From NCBI GenBank assembly GCA_947174305.1, contig CAMWIH010000003.1, positions 1 through 44,416 on the forward strand: DNA of 44,416 nucleotides, written 5' to 3'. This DNA comes from an uncultured Porphyromonadaceae bacterium. Lineage in GTDB: Bacteria; Bacteroidota; Bacteroidia; Bacteroidales; Muribaculaceae. Both the position numbers and the translations under genes were made by a program. Under the pieces are notes generated by a model, which searched no databases, had not been told where the DNA came from, and was given only the letters and a program-made list of their open reading frames with translations. Position 1 is the first letter of the stretch. The number at the start of each line of letters is the position of its first letter. Shown piece after piece: positions 4,807-44,364 of the stretch.

Positions 4807-4887
4807 TTTAAATCATGATGCATCATGTTTCATCATGTTTTATCATGATGCCATTTCTTTTAAATCATATTTCATCATGATGTCATT
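4807..4887. repeat. Degenerate 10-bp-period ATCATG repeat
   Basis: aatcatgatg|catcatgttt|catcatgttt|tatcatgatg ... ttcatcatgatg, in the gap upstream of dapB. Confidence 0.75.
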
Positions 4888-7292: not shown

Positions 7293-7498
7293 AAAAGCTG
7301 ATGATTCTCCTTATCCGGTTCTATCAGGGAGCCATTTCACCTCATTTCCCTGCCGCCTGCCGTTATCAGCCCACGTGCAGTCAATATGCCATAGAGGCCA
7401 TTACAAAGCATGGCCCGTTAAAGGGTCTATGGCTGGCCGTAAAGCGAATATGCCGGTGCCATCCCTGGGGTGGCTCAGGATACGACCCCGTCCCATAA
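7289..7498 (+). CDS. yidD: Membrane protein insertion efficiency factor YidD
   Basis: 69 aa '[62 protein letters not shown]'. Confidence 0.97.
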
Positions 7499-7501
7499 TA
7501 G

Positions 7502-7525
7502 CCCTATAACCCTATAACCCTATAA
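7502..7525. repeat. 3 x 8-bp tandem repeat CCCTATAA
   Basis: ccctataa ccctataa ccctataa between yidD stop and tatD start. Confidence 0.9.
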
Positions 7526-7539
7526 CCCCACTTAATACT

Positions 7540-8243: not shown

Positions 8244-11201
8244 TTGAGAGCGAAATTATTCATTATCACATCCATCCTCCTTCTGCTTCTCATCCTTGCC
8301 GGATGCGGAACAAAGAAGAATACTGCCGGTTCGCGCAACTGGCAGGCTTTCACCACGCGCTATAATGTCTATTACAACGGCAAGGAGCATTATAACGAGC
8401 AGATTAAGGATATGGAGGGTAAATATGAGGATGACTATTCCCGGTTCGTGCTCACCCATCCTGCCGAGGCGCGTGCCGACCAGAAACAGCCCCAGCCTAC
8501 GGGAGACTTCAAACGCACCATCGAGAAGATGCAGAAGGCCATACAGCTTCATTCAATCAAGAAGAAGCCGGCAAAAAAAAATTCTTCTCCCAAGGATAAG
8601 GCTTTCCGTGCCCGCGATGAATTTAACCCGTTCCTGCATAAGGCCTGGATGCTTATGGGGGAGGGACAGTATCTTAACGGTGATTTCTTAGGTGCGGCCG
8701 CCACATTCTTCTATATCTCGAAGCATTTCACGTGGCTTCCCGACGTGGTAACCGAAGCGAGGATACGCAATGCCCTTGCCTATCTTGCCCTGGACTGGAA
8801 CTACGAGGCCGAAAACGCGCTCCATCTCGTAAAGCCCAAGGACCTCACAACACAGAAGCTTAAGGATCTCTATAACCGTGCCATGGGAGATTATTACGTG
8901 CGCACCGAAAAGTATTCGCAAGCCATTCCCTATCTTGCCCAGGCTGCCAAAAAGGCTTCCGGCACTCAGAAAAACCGTCTCTATTTCCTGTTGGGACAGG
9001 TATATGCCCACGAGGGTGAACGCCAGAAGGCCTATCAGGCTTTTAAGAAGGCCGGTGCGGGCAATTCTCTCCCCTATCGTGCCAAGTTCAATGCACGCAT
9101 AAAGCAGAGCGAGGTCTATGCCGGATCTAACGTCAAGAAAGAGGTTGGATCATTGCTTGCCATGACCCGTTATGCACGAAACAAGGAATTTCTCGACCAG
9201 ATATATTATGCTGTCGGTAACCTCTGGATGTCGCGCAACGATTCTGCCCAGGCCAAGAAATATTATGCGCTCGCGGTGGAGAAATCTACACGCAACGGCA
9301 TCGACAAGGCCCTCGCCCAGCTCGCTCTCGGAAATATATATTTCGACGAGGGTGAGTATGTCAAGGCCCAGCCCTGCTATTCGGAAGCCGTGCCTCAGCT
9401 CCCGGAAAGCTTTCCCGACTACAAGATGCTGAAACGTCGTTCGGATGTGCTCGACGAGCTGGCTGTATATGCCGGCAATGTGGAGCTTCAGGATTCTTTG
9501 CTCACCCTCTCCAAGATGACTCCCGAGGAGCGCGAGAAGGTGTGCCAAAAGATTGTTGACGACCTCATCGCCAAAGAGAAGAAGGAGGCGGAAGAGGCCA
9601 AGAAGGAGGCTTACCTTGCCGAACAGGAGGGAAACAAGAATATCAAGGATAACAATCCCGCTCCCGCCGTGGGAATGAATTCCGACAAGTCGTGGTATTT
9701 CTACAACACCATGACAAAGAATGCCGGAAAAACAGAGTTCCAGCGCAGATGGGGAGCCAGAAAACTGGAAGACGACTGGCGTCGCCGAAACAAAAGCTCC
9801 TTCTCTTTTGAAGAAGAGGAAACCGCCGATAATTCCGAAGATTCCGATAACTCCGATAATTCAGATAATTCCAATCCCTCCAATAAAGAGGAGAAAGAGA
9901 AAAAAGATGATGAGAACGATCCTCACAACGTGGCTTACTATCTCAAGCAGATTCCAACCACCGAAGAGGAGATTCAGAACGCCAACGACATAATTCAGGA
10001 GGGCCTGTACAACGAGGGTGTGATTCTCAAAGACAAACTGGAGGATTTCTCTGCCGCCAGAAAGGAGTTCCTGCGTCTCGAAAACCGCTATCCCGACAAT
10101 ATATATCGTCTTGACGTTTATTATAACATGTATCTTATGGCGGTGCGTCAGAATATGCCCGGAGAGGCGGAGAAATGGAGGGCCAAGATCATAGCCGACT
10201 TCCCCGATTCCCCTTACGGCAAGGCTATGCTCGACCCTGACTATTTCGATAATCTCCGCAAGATGAATTCCATCCAGGAGGGACGGTATGAGACGGCCTA
10301 TAACGCCTACCTGAACAATAACAATGCCACCGTGCATCGAATCACTTCGGATATGGAACGAGATTATCCGCTTTCCACCATACTCCCGAAATTTGTGTTC
10401 ATCGATGCCCTATCATATCTCACCGAAAATGATAATGAGCGGTTCAAGGAACGCTTAACGGAGCTTCTCCAAAAGTGGCCCGAAACCGATATGACCGATA
10501 TGGCAGGGGGCATCCTTTCGGGTCTGAAGGCAGGGCGTGTGCCCAACTCCGACGGCTCCAATTCAAGGGGCATGATATGGTCAATGCGTCTCTCCAACGA
10601 TTCCGTGCCGACAGGCGCCGATGGCCAACCCGCCAATTTTGAACGAGACCCGGAGAAACCGCAATATCTCGTGCTCGTTTTCCCACGCGATTCGGTGAAT
10701 GCCAATCAGCTGCTCTACGATGTGGCGCGCTTTAACTTCTCCTCTTTCGTGGTCCGCGACTTTGATCTCGAGCCCATGAGTTTCGGAAATGTCGGGTTGC
10801 TTATTATAAAGGGCTTCGACAATCTGAAACAGCTTGAGCATTATCGCTCGGTGATGGAGAAATCCCCTTTCCGCATCCCCGAAGGGGTTCGGCCCGTGAT
10901 GATAAGCAAAGCCAACTTTGAACTTCTCTTGCGCGAAGGACGTTCATTTGAAGAATACTTCCGCTTCGAGGAAGACGACAAATACGATGCCGTAGAAGAC
11001 TCGGTATTAAATAGCGAGGATGAGGGTTTGAATAGCGACAATGAGGGTTTGAATAGCGATGATGAAGTGGAATCAGCCAGTGAAGAAATGCCTACCTCGC
11101 CTATAACGCCTACTCCGCCTACCTCGCCTACAAATCCGGAGGAGCCTACCTCGCCCACAAATCCGAAGGCAGAAGAGAGCGAAGCAGAAGAAAATAATTA
11201 A
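8244..11201 (+). CDS. porW: TPR lipoprotein, T9SS component PorW/SprE-like
   Basis: TTG start, lipobox 'LLILAGCGTKKNTAGSRNWQAFTTRYNVYYNGKEHYNEQI', TPR repeats and C-terminal 'YDVARFNFSSFVVRDFDLE' as in SprE/PorW; directly upstream of porX. Confidence 0.82.
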   Translation: MRAKLFIITSILLLLLILAGCGTKKNTAGSRNWQAFTTRYNVYYNGKEHYNEQIKDMEGKYEDDYSRFVLTHPAEARADQKQPQPTGDFKRTIEKMQKAIQLHSIKKKPAKKNSSPKDKAFRARDEFNPFLHKAWMLMGEGQYLNGDFLGAAATFFYISKHFTWLPDVVTEARIRNALAYLALDWNYEAENALHLVKPKDLTTQKLKDLYNRAMGDYYVRTEKYSQAIPYLAQAAKKASGTQKNRLYFLLGQVYAHEGERQKAYQAFKKAGAGNSLPYRAKFNARIKQSEVYAGSNVKKEVGSLLAMTRYARNKEFLDQIYYAVGNLWMSRNDSAQAKKYYALAVEKSTRNGIDKALAQLALGNIYFDEGEYVKAQPCYSEAVPQLPESFPDYKMLKRRSDVLDELAVYAGNVELQDSLLTLSKMTPEEREKVCQKIVDDLIAKEKKEAEEAKKEAYLAEQEGNKNIKDNNPAPAVGMNSDKSWYFYNTMTKNAGKTEFQRRWGARKLEDDWRRRNKSSFSFEEEETADNSEDSDNSDNSDNSNPSNKEEKEKKDDENDPHNVAYYLKQIPTTEEEIQNANDIIQEGLYNEGVILKDKLEDFSAARKEFLRLENRYPDNIYRLDVYYNMYLMAVRQNMPGEAEKWRAKIIADFPDSPYGKAMLDPDYFDNLRKMNSIQEGRYETAYNAYLNNNNATVHRITSDMERDYPLSTILPKFVFIDALSYLTENDNERFKERLTELLQKWPETDMTDMAGGILSGLKAGRVPNSDGSNSRGMIWSMRLSNDSVPTGADGQPANFERDPEKPQYLVLVFPRDSVNANQLLYDVARFNFSSFVVRDFDLEPMSFGNVGLLIIKGFDNLKQLEHYRSVMEKSPFRIPEGVRPVMISKANFELLLREGRSFEEYFRFEEDDKYDAVEDSVLNSEDEGLNSDNEGLNSDDEVESASEEMPTSPITPTPPTSPTNPEEPTSPTNPKAEESEAEENN
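9823..9885 (+). repeat. In-frame 9-bp GATAAYTCC-type repeats coding (D/E)(N/D)S
   Basis: gataattccgaagattccgataactccgataattcagataattcc inside porW, encodes DNSEDSDNSDNSDNS. Confidence 0.85.
11010..11070 (+). repeat. In-frame ~21-bp repeat in porW
   Basis: aatagcgaggatgagggtttg / aatagcgacaatgagggtttg / aatagcgatgatgaa, encodes NSEDEGLNSDNEGLNSDDE. Confidence 0.9.
11090..11164 (+). repeat. 9-bp-period GCCTANNNN array inside porW coding sequence
   Basis: gcctacctc gcctataac gcctactcc gcctacctc gcctacaaa tccggagga gcctacctc gcccacaaa; same unit as intergenic arrays around recA. Confidence 0.9.
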
Positions 11202-11212
11202 AAAGAAAAGCC

Positions 11213-12748
11213 ATGGATAGAATCCTTTGGGCTGATGATGAGATTGATCTCCTGAAGCCGCATATATTGTTCCTTAAAGCAAAAGGGTATGACGTGACAA
11301 CGGTCTCCAACGGCCGCGACGCCCTCGATGCCCTCGAAAACGACAGCTTCTCCCTCATTCTCCTCGATGAGAATATGCCCGGTATTTCGGGGCTTGAGAC
11401 ATTGGCCGAGATCAACGCCACTCATCCAGAGATTCCGGTAATCATGATTACTAAATCGGAAGAGGAGAACATAATGGACCAGGCAATCGGAAACCAGATT
11501 GCCGATTACCTCATCAAACCGGTCAATCCCAACCAGATTCTCCTATCCATAAAAAAGAATCTTCACAGCCGCGAGATTGTGGCCGAGCAGGCCACATCCG
11601 ACTATCAGCAGGAGTTTCAGAAACTCGCTTCGCAAATCAATATGGCCTCCACCCTTCCCGACTGGATGGACGTTTACCGTCAGCTCGTGAGATGGGAACT
11701 GAAGCTTGCCGAAACTGACACCTCGATGGGAGAATTGCTTCTCATGCAGAAACGCGATGCCAATTCAAATTTCTGCAAGTTTGTGAAGCGCAGTTATGAG
11801 GACTGGATCAGGGAGGATGACCGCCCCCTGATGAGCCACGACATATTCAAGAAACGTGTCTTTCCCCTGCTCGATCAAGGGGATAAAGTATGCTTCTTCC
11901 TGGTAGATAATTTCCGTCTCGACCAATGGAAGGTGGTGCAACCCCTGCTTTCCGAATTTTTCAATGTATCCGAAGAGCTTTACACCACAATCCTCCCCAC
12001 ATCCACCCAATATGCACGCAATGCCATATTCGCCGGCCTCATGCCATACGACATCAAGAAGATGTTCCCGGCCCTGTGGGTTGAGGAAGATGAGGATGAA
12101 GGGCTCAACATCCACGAATCTAAATTAATCAAGACCCAACTCGATCGCTTCAGGCGTAAAGAGAAGTTCTCATATACGAAGCTCAATGACTCCTCGGCCG
12201 GTGAGAAATTTATCCGTTCGCTGGGAGCCACAAAGGATATAGACCTCAACGTGGTTGTGCTCAACTTCATCGATATGCTTTCCCACGCGCGTACGGAGTC
12301 TAAGATGATTCGCGAACTGGCAAATAACGATGCCGCCTACCGTTCGCTCACAGAGTCATGGTTCCGTCATTCCTCCACGATCGACATCTTCCGCCGTCTG
12401 GCAGAGTTGGGCTATAAGGTTATCCTCACCACCGACCACGGCACAATCCGCGTGGATAATCCCATAAAGGTGGTAGGCGACCGAAACACGAACACCAACC
12501 TGCGCTATAAGGTAGGAAAAAGCCTGTCGTATAATCCGAAACAGGTATATGAGATGCACGACCCCAAGAGGTTCGGCCTCCCGGCTCCAAACCTCTCGAG
12601 CACATTCATCTTTGCCTGCAACGAGGATTTCTTCTCCTACCCGAACAATTACAATTATTATGTGCAATACTACAACGGCACATTCCAGCACGGAGGTATA
12701 TCCCTTCAGGAAATGCTCGTGCCTCTGGTGACACTCTCACCAAAATAG
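11213..12748 (+). CDS. porX: PorX: response regulator receiver + PglZ (alkaline phosphatase superfamily) domain, T9SS regulator
   Basis: 'RILWADDEIDLLKPHILFLKAKGYDV...LLDENMPGISGLETL...YLIKPVNPNQI' receiver; 'VVVLNFIDMLSHARTESKMI...VILTTDHGTIRV' PglZ. Confidence 0.93.
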   Translation: MDRILWADDEIDLLKPHILFLKAKGYDVTTVSNGRDALDALENDSFSLILLDENMPGISGLETLAEINATHPEIPVIMITKSEEENIMDQAIGNQIADYLIKPVNPNQILLSIKKNLHSREIVAEQATSDYQQEFQKLASQINMASTLPDWMDVYRQLVRWELKLAETDTSMGELLLMQKRDANSNFCKFVKRSYEDWIREDDRPLMSHDIFKKRVFPLLDQGDKVCFFLVDNFRLDQWKVVQPLLSEFFNVSEELYTTILPTSTQYARNAIFAGLMPYDIKKMFPALWVEEDEDEGLNIHESKLIKTQLDRFRRKEKFSYTKLNDSSAGEKFIRSLGATKDIDLNVVVLNFIDMLSHARTESKMIRELANNDAAYRSLTESWFRHSSTIDIFRRLAELGYKVILTTDHGTIRVDNPIKVVGDRNTNTNLRYKVGKSLSYNPKQVYEMHDPKRFGLPAPNLSSTFIFACNEDFFSYPNNYNYYVQYYNGTFQHGGISLQEMLVPLVTLSPK

Positions 12749-12786
12749 AAAATGATGCAACCTTAGGTTGCATCATTTTCTATTTT
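12742..12786 (+). terminator. Rho-independent-type hairpin, 22-bp perfect stem
   Basis: aaaatagaaaatgatgcaacct-t-aggttgcatcattttctatttt; overlaps porX stop codon. Confidence 0.9.
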
Positions 12787-12790
12787 ATCA

Positions 12791-12890
12791 TGTCGCATCA
12801 TGATTTATCATGTTTCATCATGATTCGTCTTGTTTCATCATGATTCGTCTTGTTTCATCATGATTTATCATGTTTCATCATGATTATAAG
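12791..12890. repeat. 10-bp-period TGATNNATCA-type tandem array
   Basis: tgtcgcatca|tgatttatca|tgtttcatca|tgattcgtct|tgtttcatca|tgattcgtct|tgtttcatca|tgatttatca|tgtttcatca|tgattataag. Confidence 0.92.
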
Positions 12891-41071: not shown

Positions 41072-41360
41072 CGATAGGCTTTTATAGGCATTATAGGCTT
41101 TGTAGGCTTTGTAGGCATTGTAGGCATTATAGGCAATGTAGGCGTTGTAGGCAATGTAGGCAATGTAGGCATTATAGGCAATGTAGGCGTTGTAGGCAAT
41201 TATAGAGAGGCTTTCCGAATGCGGAGCCACGGGGCGGGAGCTTGCAGCTTCCGCAAAATCCGAGGGGCTCGATGCCCCGCAGGATTTTCCGCCTACCCAG
41301 CCTAATTCGCCTATCCCGCCTATCCCGCCTAATTAGCCTACCCCGCCTAATTAGCCTACC
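41072..41360. repeat. Composite element: RTAGGCNWT 9-mer array, REP-like core A and hairpin, then inverted GCCTANNNN 9-mer array
   Basis: About 14 left units of 9 bp, core 41221-41255, hairpin 41253-41291, about 8 right units (gcctaccca gcctaattc gcctatccc gcctatccc gcctaatta gcctacccc gcctaatta gcctacc). Confidence 0.92.
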
Positions 41361-42703: not shown

Positions 42704-42870
42704 TAGGCTTTTTAGGCGAAATAGGCAGTATAGGCGAAATAGGCTTTTATAGGCATTATGGGCGGGATAGGCATTCCTATTCCGCCCATATCATTGCCTA
42801 CCTCGCCTACTCCGCCTATCCCGCCTATCTCGCCTACTCCGCCTATCCTGCCTACCTCGCCTACCCTGCA
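42703..42870. repeat. Composite 9-mer array: TAGGC units, central hairpin, inverted GCCTA units
   Basis: Hairpin ATGGGCGGGATAGG-CATT-CCTATTCCGCCCAT at 42758-42789; 8 right units of exactly 9 bp. Confidence 0.92.
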
Positions 42871-42882
42871 AAAATTTTGCAG
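42866..42882. promoter_or_regulatory. Perfect palindrome CTGCAAAA-A-TTTTGCAG upstream of recA
   Basis: 8-bp perfect arms, 62 nt before recA -7 box. Confidence 0.55.
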
Positions 42883-44204: not shown

Positions 44205-44364
44205 TTGTAGGCTTAATGGGCTGAATAGGCTTTGTAGGCTGAATAGGCGTATGATGGGCTGAATAGGCATTATGGGCGAGATAGGCATTCCTATCCCGCC
44301 CATTATTATTTGCCCACTTCGCCTATCCTGCCTATCACGCCTACCCCGCCTATCACGCCTAAAT
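44205..44364. repeat. Composite 9-mer array downstream of recA
   Basis: TAGGC units, hairpin ATGGGCGAGATAGG-CATT-CCTATCCCGCCCAT (44272-44303), then GCCTA units (gcctatcct gcctatcac gcctacccc gcctatcac gcctaaat). Confidence 0.92.

Follow-up and report, generated by a model that had tools for sequence, protein, structure and literature searches.

The window analysed here, a stretch of 44,416 nt from an uncultured Muribaculaceae bacterium, contains repeats flanked by genes that Pfam confirms as a class II lysyl-type tRNA synthetase, glycerol-3-phosphate dehydrogenase (gpsA), phosphoglucose isomerase (pgi) and RecA. The gpsA-pgi gap (41075-41358) is occupied by two facing arrays with a 9-bp step, one of 14 TAGGC and the other of 8 GCCTA units; the first step of the 5′ arm is 10 bp long, and the following 12 are exactly 9 bp. 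Counts and positions match the original prediction of about 14 TAGGC and about 8 inverted units, and the contrast it drew between AT-rich spacers on the left and C-rich spacers on the right is as stated, C being absent from the spacers of the 5′ arm. Each unit joins a constant part of 5 bp to a variable part of 4 bp, a structure that excludes, as had been argued, both CRISPR, with its 20-40 bp repeats and unique spacers of similar length, and a VNTR of identical units. The features of the window are:

41075-41197, plus strand: 5′ arm of the gpsA-pgi element, 14 TAGGC units (direct reading, TRF, genome pattern search)
41233-41254, plus strand: REP-like palindrome GGCGGGAGC-TTGCA-GCTTCCGC in the gpsA-pgi element, 22 bp, about 30 genome copies
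41255-41288, strand undefined: terminator-like hairpin AAAATCC..GGATTTT adjoining the REP in the gpsA-pgi element (direct reading, folding)
41291-41358, minus strand: 3′ arm of the gpsA-pgi element, eight GCCTA units at exact 9-bp steps (direct reading, TRF, pattern search)
42704-42754, plus strand: 5′ arm of the second element, in the pgi-recA gap, beginning directly after the pgi stop codon
42758-42789, strand undefined: perfect hairpin ATGGGCGGGATAGG-CATT-CCTATTCCGCCCAT at the centre of the second (pgi-recA) element
42796-42863, minus strand: 3′ arm of the second (pgi-recA) element, eight GCCTA units (TRF, pattern search)
44208-44361, strand undefined: third element, after recA, with a TAGGC/TGGGC arm, a central hairpin (44272-44304) and a GCCYA arm
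11090-11157, minus strand: half-array with GCCTA on the plus strand, lying within the 3′-terminal part of coding region 8244-11201

The window thus holds three facing-arm elements (gpsA-pgi, pgi-recA and after recA) and one half-array. Read in frame, the half-array gives a tail rich in Pro and Thr, and it is conserved in the sister species. Two further word families of the same genome are also present. One, of period 10 (ATCATGNNNN; ATCATG), occupies 4 gaps in the sampled genome and is seen at 12784-12885, directly after the terminator ending the gene at 11213-12748, and at 4810-4883 in another gap. The other, of period 8 (ATAACCNN), is found in about 10 gaps of the sampled genome and at 7498-7528 of the window; some of its loci carry facing GGTTAT/ATAACC arms (L177, L211). 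Upstream of recA lies the palindrome CTGCAAAAATTTTGCAG (42866-42882), a possible SOS-type operator or terminator, and similar CTGCAA..TTGCAG palindromes stand ahead of recA in L041, L147, L163, L168 and L171.

Abundance in the Genome

The view of the element as a dispersed repeat is upheld by a genome-wide scan: the draft genome of the source bacterium (G000; 2.8 Mb, 225 contigs) contains 101 matches (53 + 48) to (TAGGCN4)3TAGGC, against 0 for the reversed control word in the same 2.8-Mb draft, far more than chance would give. Same-strand TAGGC distances in a 719-kb sample of this genome fall 187 times at 9 bp, 12 times at 10 bp and fewer than 3 times at 8 bp. Context statistics come from these 719 kb together with 400 kb of a sister species (G331), partly picked for array-bearing contigs, and distances at single loci are approximate since genes were called with our own simple codon-usage script. 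The samples yielded 42 loci, 16 of them two-armed and 26 (about 60%) single-armed. Contigs 1, 8, 28, 44, 78, 119 and 205 of G000 have TAGGC arrays no more than a few hundred bases from an end, and the arrays therefore probably break assemblies and are undercounted. An assembly artefact is excluded by the separate sister genome, which carries arrays at the same loci.

Rfam gave no match in the window at gathering score, and no description of these arrays was found in the open-access literature, where absence is weak evidence. So far as that search reaches, the proposal of an unnamed class of dispersed repeat stands for the arms, which are enriched and lie at gene 3′ ends, but not for the middle, which is made of a REP and a terminator-like hairpin.

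Unit Structure and Local Growth

Units have the core T[A/G]GGC, and the consensus reaches R-TAGGC-R. Between neighbouring units, core positions 1, 3, 4 and 5 differ in 0-2% and position 2 (A/G) in 11%, against 56-73% at the spacer positions. Spacers take almost any base except C on the TAGGC strand (16 C among 1252 spacer positions), and in the consensus C is excluded from all of them. A core this constant implies that it is under purifying selection or that copying resumes at it every time.

Identical spacers make up 17-19% of pairs two or three units apart, compared with 9% of direct neighbours and 3.5% of random pairs, a sign of duplication in blocks of 18-27 bp. The longest string common to different loci (24 nt) falls within the range of shuffle maxima (23-32 nt), which leaves copying of arrays between loci without support. 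Because the signal of block duplication comes with no excess of long inter-locus strings, the arrays appear to have grown in place.

Could mutation alone have produced them? They may be functionless minisatellites that grew by slippage where harm is least, the core being kept by template switching that re-anneals at the TAGGC microhomology while the spacers are shuffled. Block duplication and the lack of long strings common to loci agree with such an origin, as does strand asymmetry, which is usual in minisatellites. It sits less well with spacers near saturation beside cores that are almost fixed, and with a 9-bp step held over dozens of loci; we consider it possible, if somewhat unlikely.

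The unit would also suit an array of binding sites, in which RTAGGCR words recurring every 9 bp on the C-poor strand are recognised by a protein that binds DNA or RNA sequence-specifically, and the arms point to the centre as landing sites, for example for nucleoid or transcription-end proteins. The R-TAGGC-R consensus with C barred from every spacer position argues for this, and so does the equal conservation of the core in single arms: broken cores number 9 of 95 against 9 of 158 when single- and two-armed arrays are compared (p = 0.31). However, there is no candidate protein, 9 bp is not a DNA turn, and isolated TAGGC in coding sequence is not clearly enriched over relatives; binding sites seem an unlikely explanation.

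Placement and Facing Arms

The 42 loci examined in the two species lie mostly directly 3′ of stop codons. The 23 that fall between co-directional genes begin at a median of 15 nt past the upstream stop and end 58 nt before the next start (p = 0.027 for the mean distance under uniform placement), and divergent gaps, about 13% of gaps in the sample, hold one locus. Where an array starts within 20 nt of a stop codon, TAGGC is read on the sense strand in 15 of 19 cases (one array being entered twice, once from each side); four times the stop codon is itself the TAG of the array. A role as in-frame backup stop codons was set aside: of 20 first array TAGs, 10 are in the gene frame, and 4 of these 10 are the stop itself, which is suggestive at best. 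Some arrays fall within coding sequence, and single arms are found in both sense orientations. Some elements (L189, L190, L191, L212 and L215) come after an ordinary terminator, where transcription may be low.

At each of the 16 two-armed loci the TAGGC arm comes first and the GCCTA arm second, and the unit numbers of left and right arms are correlated (r = 0.74, p = 0.003). Fixed order and correlated lengths speak against growth by mutation alone, while the fact that single-armed loci are as frequent as two-armed ones speaks for it. RNA folding of the three window elements against dinucleotide shuffles gave z = -5.4, -8.7 and -6.8, the predicted fold being a ladder of core-core helices with spacer loops in which the cores are paired in register. 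The earlier statement that the gpsA-pgi element is not a simple cruciform holds for the spacers, which are mostly unpaired, but not for the cores of the two arms, which in the predicted fold pair in register in 8 of 8 right-arm units and so make a single long hairpin. A G-rich 5′ arm followed by a C-rich 3′ arm also prevails in terminator-like hairpins (64 against 23 in G000, G331 and the relative G015).

Core position 2 (A/G) agrees with its pairing partner at above-expected frequency (9 G-C pairs), in a register set by the fold. A-C mismatches (8) are as common there as G-U pairs (6), so there is no sign of RNA-specific pairing, and we place no weight on RNA-specific covariation. With single arms keeping their cores equally well and A-C as common as G-U, pairing alone does not account for the constant core.

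REP Sequences and Other Centres

The middle of the gpsA-pgi element had been described as the structured part of one composite element. Structured it is, but it consists of two separate hairpins of known types, the REP and the terminator-like hairpin, the T-run of the latter being too short for a strict terminator scan. An intrinsic terminator is a GC-rich hairpin with a T-run behind it; the scan made no call at element centres in the window, and centres at other loci do have T-runs. The hairpin at 41233-41254 is a palindrome of the REP kind, and REPs in G000 are tied to a Y1_Tnp gene, seven copies surrounding a 206-aa gene with this domain; the gpsA-pgi middle is ordinary REP/RAYT-like biology. 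The REP is present about 30 times in G000, 26 times in G015 and 14 times in G047, and its copies frequently form inverted pairs some 113 bp apart. The locus of the Y1-transposase gene and its seven REP copies (L269, contig 5 of G000, 1-2270) adjoins a HepT-like/nucleotidyltransferase-type toxin-antitoxin pair and looks like the REP source of this genome. Other TAGGC elements are centred on a GGGCGGGATAGG..CCTATTCCGCCC hairpin, a plain bidirectional terminator or a few bases, and most arrays have no REP nearby. One locus of the sister species (L265, 15930-16240) is a nested palindrome with REP copies and TAGGC units mirrored about a terminator hairpin, as if grown outwards.

A REP/RAYT or MITE-type mobile system might be thought to spread the arrays, given the REP in the gpsA-pgi middle, the REP copies around the Y1_Tnp gene of G000 and the presence of Y1_Tnp genes in both array-bearing sister species. 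Presence and absence across genomes nevertheless exclude the Y1 transposase as their driver, since the array-rich Prevotella genomes RUG541 and RUG101 are without a Y1_Tnp match and the array-free G015 has three. REPs are lacking near most arrays, loci do not have long strings in common, and the few orthologous sites compared include no clean filled/empty pair; at L194 the arms take the place of the flanks of a hairpin that is also present in G015. We disfavour mobility as very unlikely.

Relatives and Other Words

The recA gene of the sister species (G331, the genome of contig CAMWXH010000012) is 86.5% identical to that of G000. In that species each of the three window gaps has an array-bearing orthologue, and so does every further orthologous locus that was compared; unit numbers vary, and about 41 nt of the left arm of the pgi-recA element are identical, spacers included. 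Such retention at the same loci despite 13% recA divergence counts against a functionless minisatellite. No TAGGCx4 match was obtained in G015 (recA 82%), where the gpsA-pgi and pgi-recA gaps are instead occupied by 9-bp arrays of a different word, GCCCGAAAA, and plain hairpin terminators are found after recA and at the L194 locus. At a convergent gene pair, an array-free relative has a bidirectional hairpin where the array-bearing element has its centre. The gpsA-pgi gap of G056 is again of period 9, with the word ATTATCCCG, and de novo word scans of a sample of 12 genomes revealed period 10 in G007, periods 7 and 8 in G056 and facing TCGGA/TCCGA arms of period 9 in G087. The coexistence of several unrelated words of different periods in one genome, and the turnover of words between close species, favour a purely mutational process; a binding factor would have to change as fast as its word.

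A search of related Bacteroidales showed that the TAGGC repeat itself is not spread throughout the order, and other species carry their own 7-10 bp words. Among 297 genomes of the family, TAGGC arrays occur in number only in G000 and G331, two more having one match each, and an order-wide sample of 394 added eight other genomes with low counts of mostly uniform units. Variable-spacer TAGGC arrays are present in Prevotella RUG541 and RUG101, the cultured species Prevotellamassilia timonensis, UBA3724, RGIG3228 and RGIG2655, a recurrence that is partly ascertainment because TAGGC was the only word searched across the public collection. Low spacer C was not a selection criterion in that search, and the 0-10% C in the spacers of these other Bacteroidales, against 18% in an acidobacterial MAG and 22% in unrelated uniform repeats, lends some weight to a protein that reads the C-poor strand. 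There might even be a Bacteroidales-wide system, a sequence-specific factor or repeat-writing enzyme acting on short words at a fixed step of 7-10 bp on the C-poor strand with its own word in each lineage and the arrays as its landing sites or products, an idea we think improbable.

Viral carriers account for 57 stretches with the pattern, and in almost all of these the distinct spacers are few. Repeats of almost uniform (TAGGCACTT/ATTT)n units (L034, L046, L058, L071, L091, L096 and others), often at contig starts in Bacteroidota, anammox and other MAGs, look like a separate phenomenon.

Comparison with Known Repeats

DNA uptake sequences are short words that form inverted-pair terminators at gene ends and are over-represented singly throughout coding sequence. 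TAGGC shares the inverted pairs at gene ends, but the single word is not clearly over-represented, with an observed/expected ratio of 1.24 in G000 (arrays masked) against 0.98-1.31 in relatives, and this reading was rejected. Cyanobacterial STRRs are intergenic heptamer repeats, recognised by one word per genome that makes up numerous short intergenic arrays and by a patchy taxonomic spread, and TAGGC arrays show both. TAACTGA heptamer arrays are likewise intergenic, in Beggiatoaceae, Cyanobacteria and some Bacteroidetes (PMC4679880). All are lineage-specific short tandem words at many intergenic loci per genome, patchy across phyla and without known function. The heptamers, however, are 7-bp whole words without a fixed constant/variable split, in contrast to the 9-bp step with 5 constant and 4 variable positions seen here; in Beggiatoaceae they lie mostly upstream of start codons, with essentially no facing arms and one inverted case (PMC4679880).

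REP and REPIN elements with their RAYT transposases are dispersed, palindromic and located at gene 3′ sides (PMC3733652, PMC3116915). The TAGGC arrays resemble them in dispersal and position, and a REP copy forms the first half of the gpsA-pgi middle; a REP, however, is a palindrome of 20-40 bp that carries a short tag at its 5′ side, whereas the unit TAGGCNNNN is not palindromic, its spacers vary, and across genomes the arrays occur independently of a Y1 (RAYT) transposase. BrickBuilt of Porphyromonas gingivalis is also a minisatellite in a composite dispersed element of the Bacteroidales, but there it lies inside a MITE with terminal inverted repeats (PMC4596501) and lacks a 9-bp constant/variable unit and facing arms. 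Minisatellites borne by a MITE are recognised by terminal inverted repeats and target-site duplication; the two arms here are inverted, yet they consist of the array itself. Finally, archaeal Borg elements carry fast-evolving tandem repeats whose origins at many loci are independent and which also occur within coding sequence, much as here (PMC9879509); the Borgs are extrachromosomal archaeal elements, and the abstract mentions neither a constant/variable split nor facing arms. Each of these nearest systems differs in a defining feature, and the TAGGC arrays belong with the dispersed short repeats rather than in a category apart.

Origin and Possible Function

The best reading, which we hold tentatively, is that the arrays are a lineage-specific degenerate 9-bp minisatellite, or word array, grown locally in gene 3′ gaps and often flanking a 3′-end hairpin on both sides, whose two-armed forms extend that hairpin. 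Slipped-strand duplication, in blocks of 18-27 bp and close to 3′-end hairpins, would generate the arrays, and a second arm could come from hairpin-templated copying or be selected. In the transcript, core helices of 5-6 bp alternating with internal loops would give two-armed forms a ladder-like fold, which would lengthen the 3′-end hairpin and might aid termination or shield the mRNA 3′ end. Two-armed forms thus most plausibly work as extended 3′-end hairpins, a proposal made with modest confidence because single arms, beyond the reach of pairing, conserve the core equally. A binding array and a purely mutational origin are close rivals, both favoured by the single-armed loci.

Short dispersed bacterial repeats are usually arrays of near-identical units or hairpins borne by a transposase, and the TAGGC arrays are neither. 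What sets them apart is the combination of a conserved core, a fixed step and saturated spacers at dozens of loci with a fixed facing order and a word that is replaced between close species in the same gap. What retains a 5-base word but not the 4 bases that adjoin it? If the answer is a binding protein or a function at the 3′ end, the arrays would be an overlooked layer of Bacteroidales intergenic sequence; if it is mutation, they would reflect an unusual process of repeat growth.
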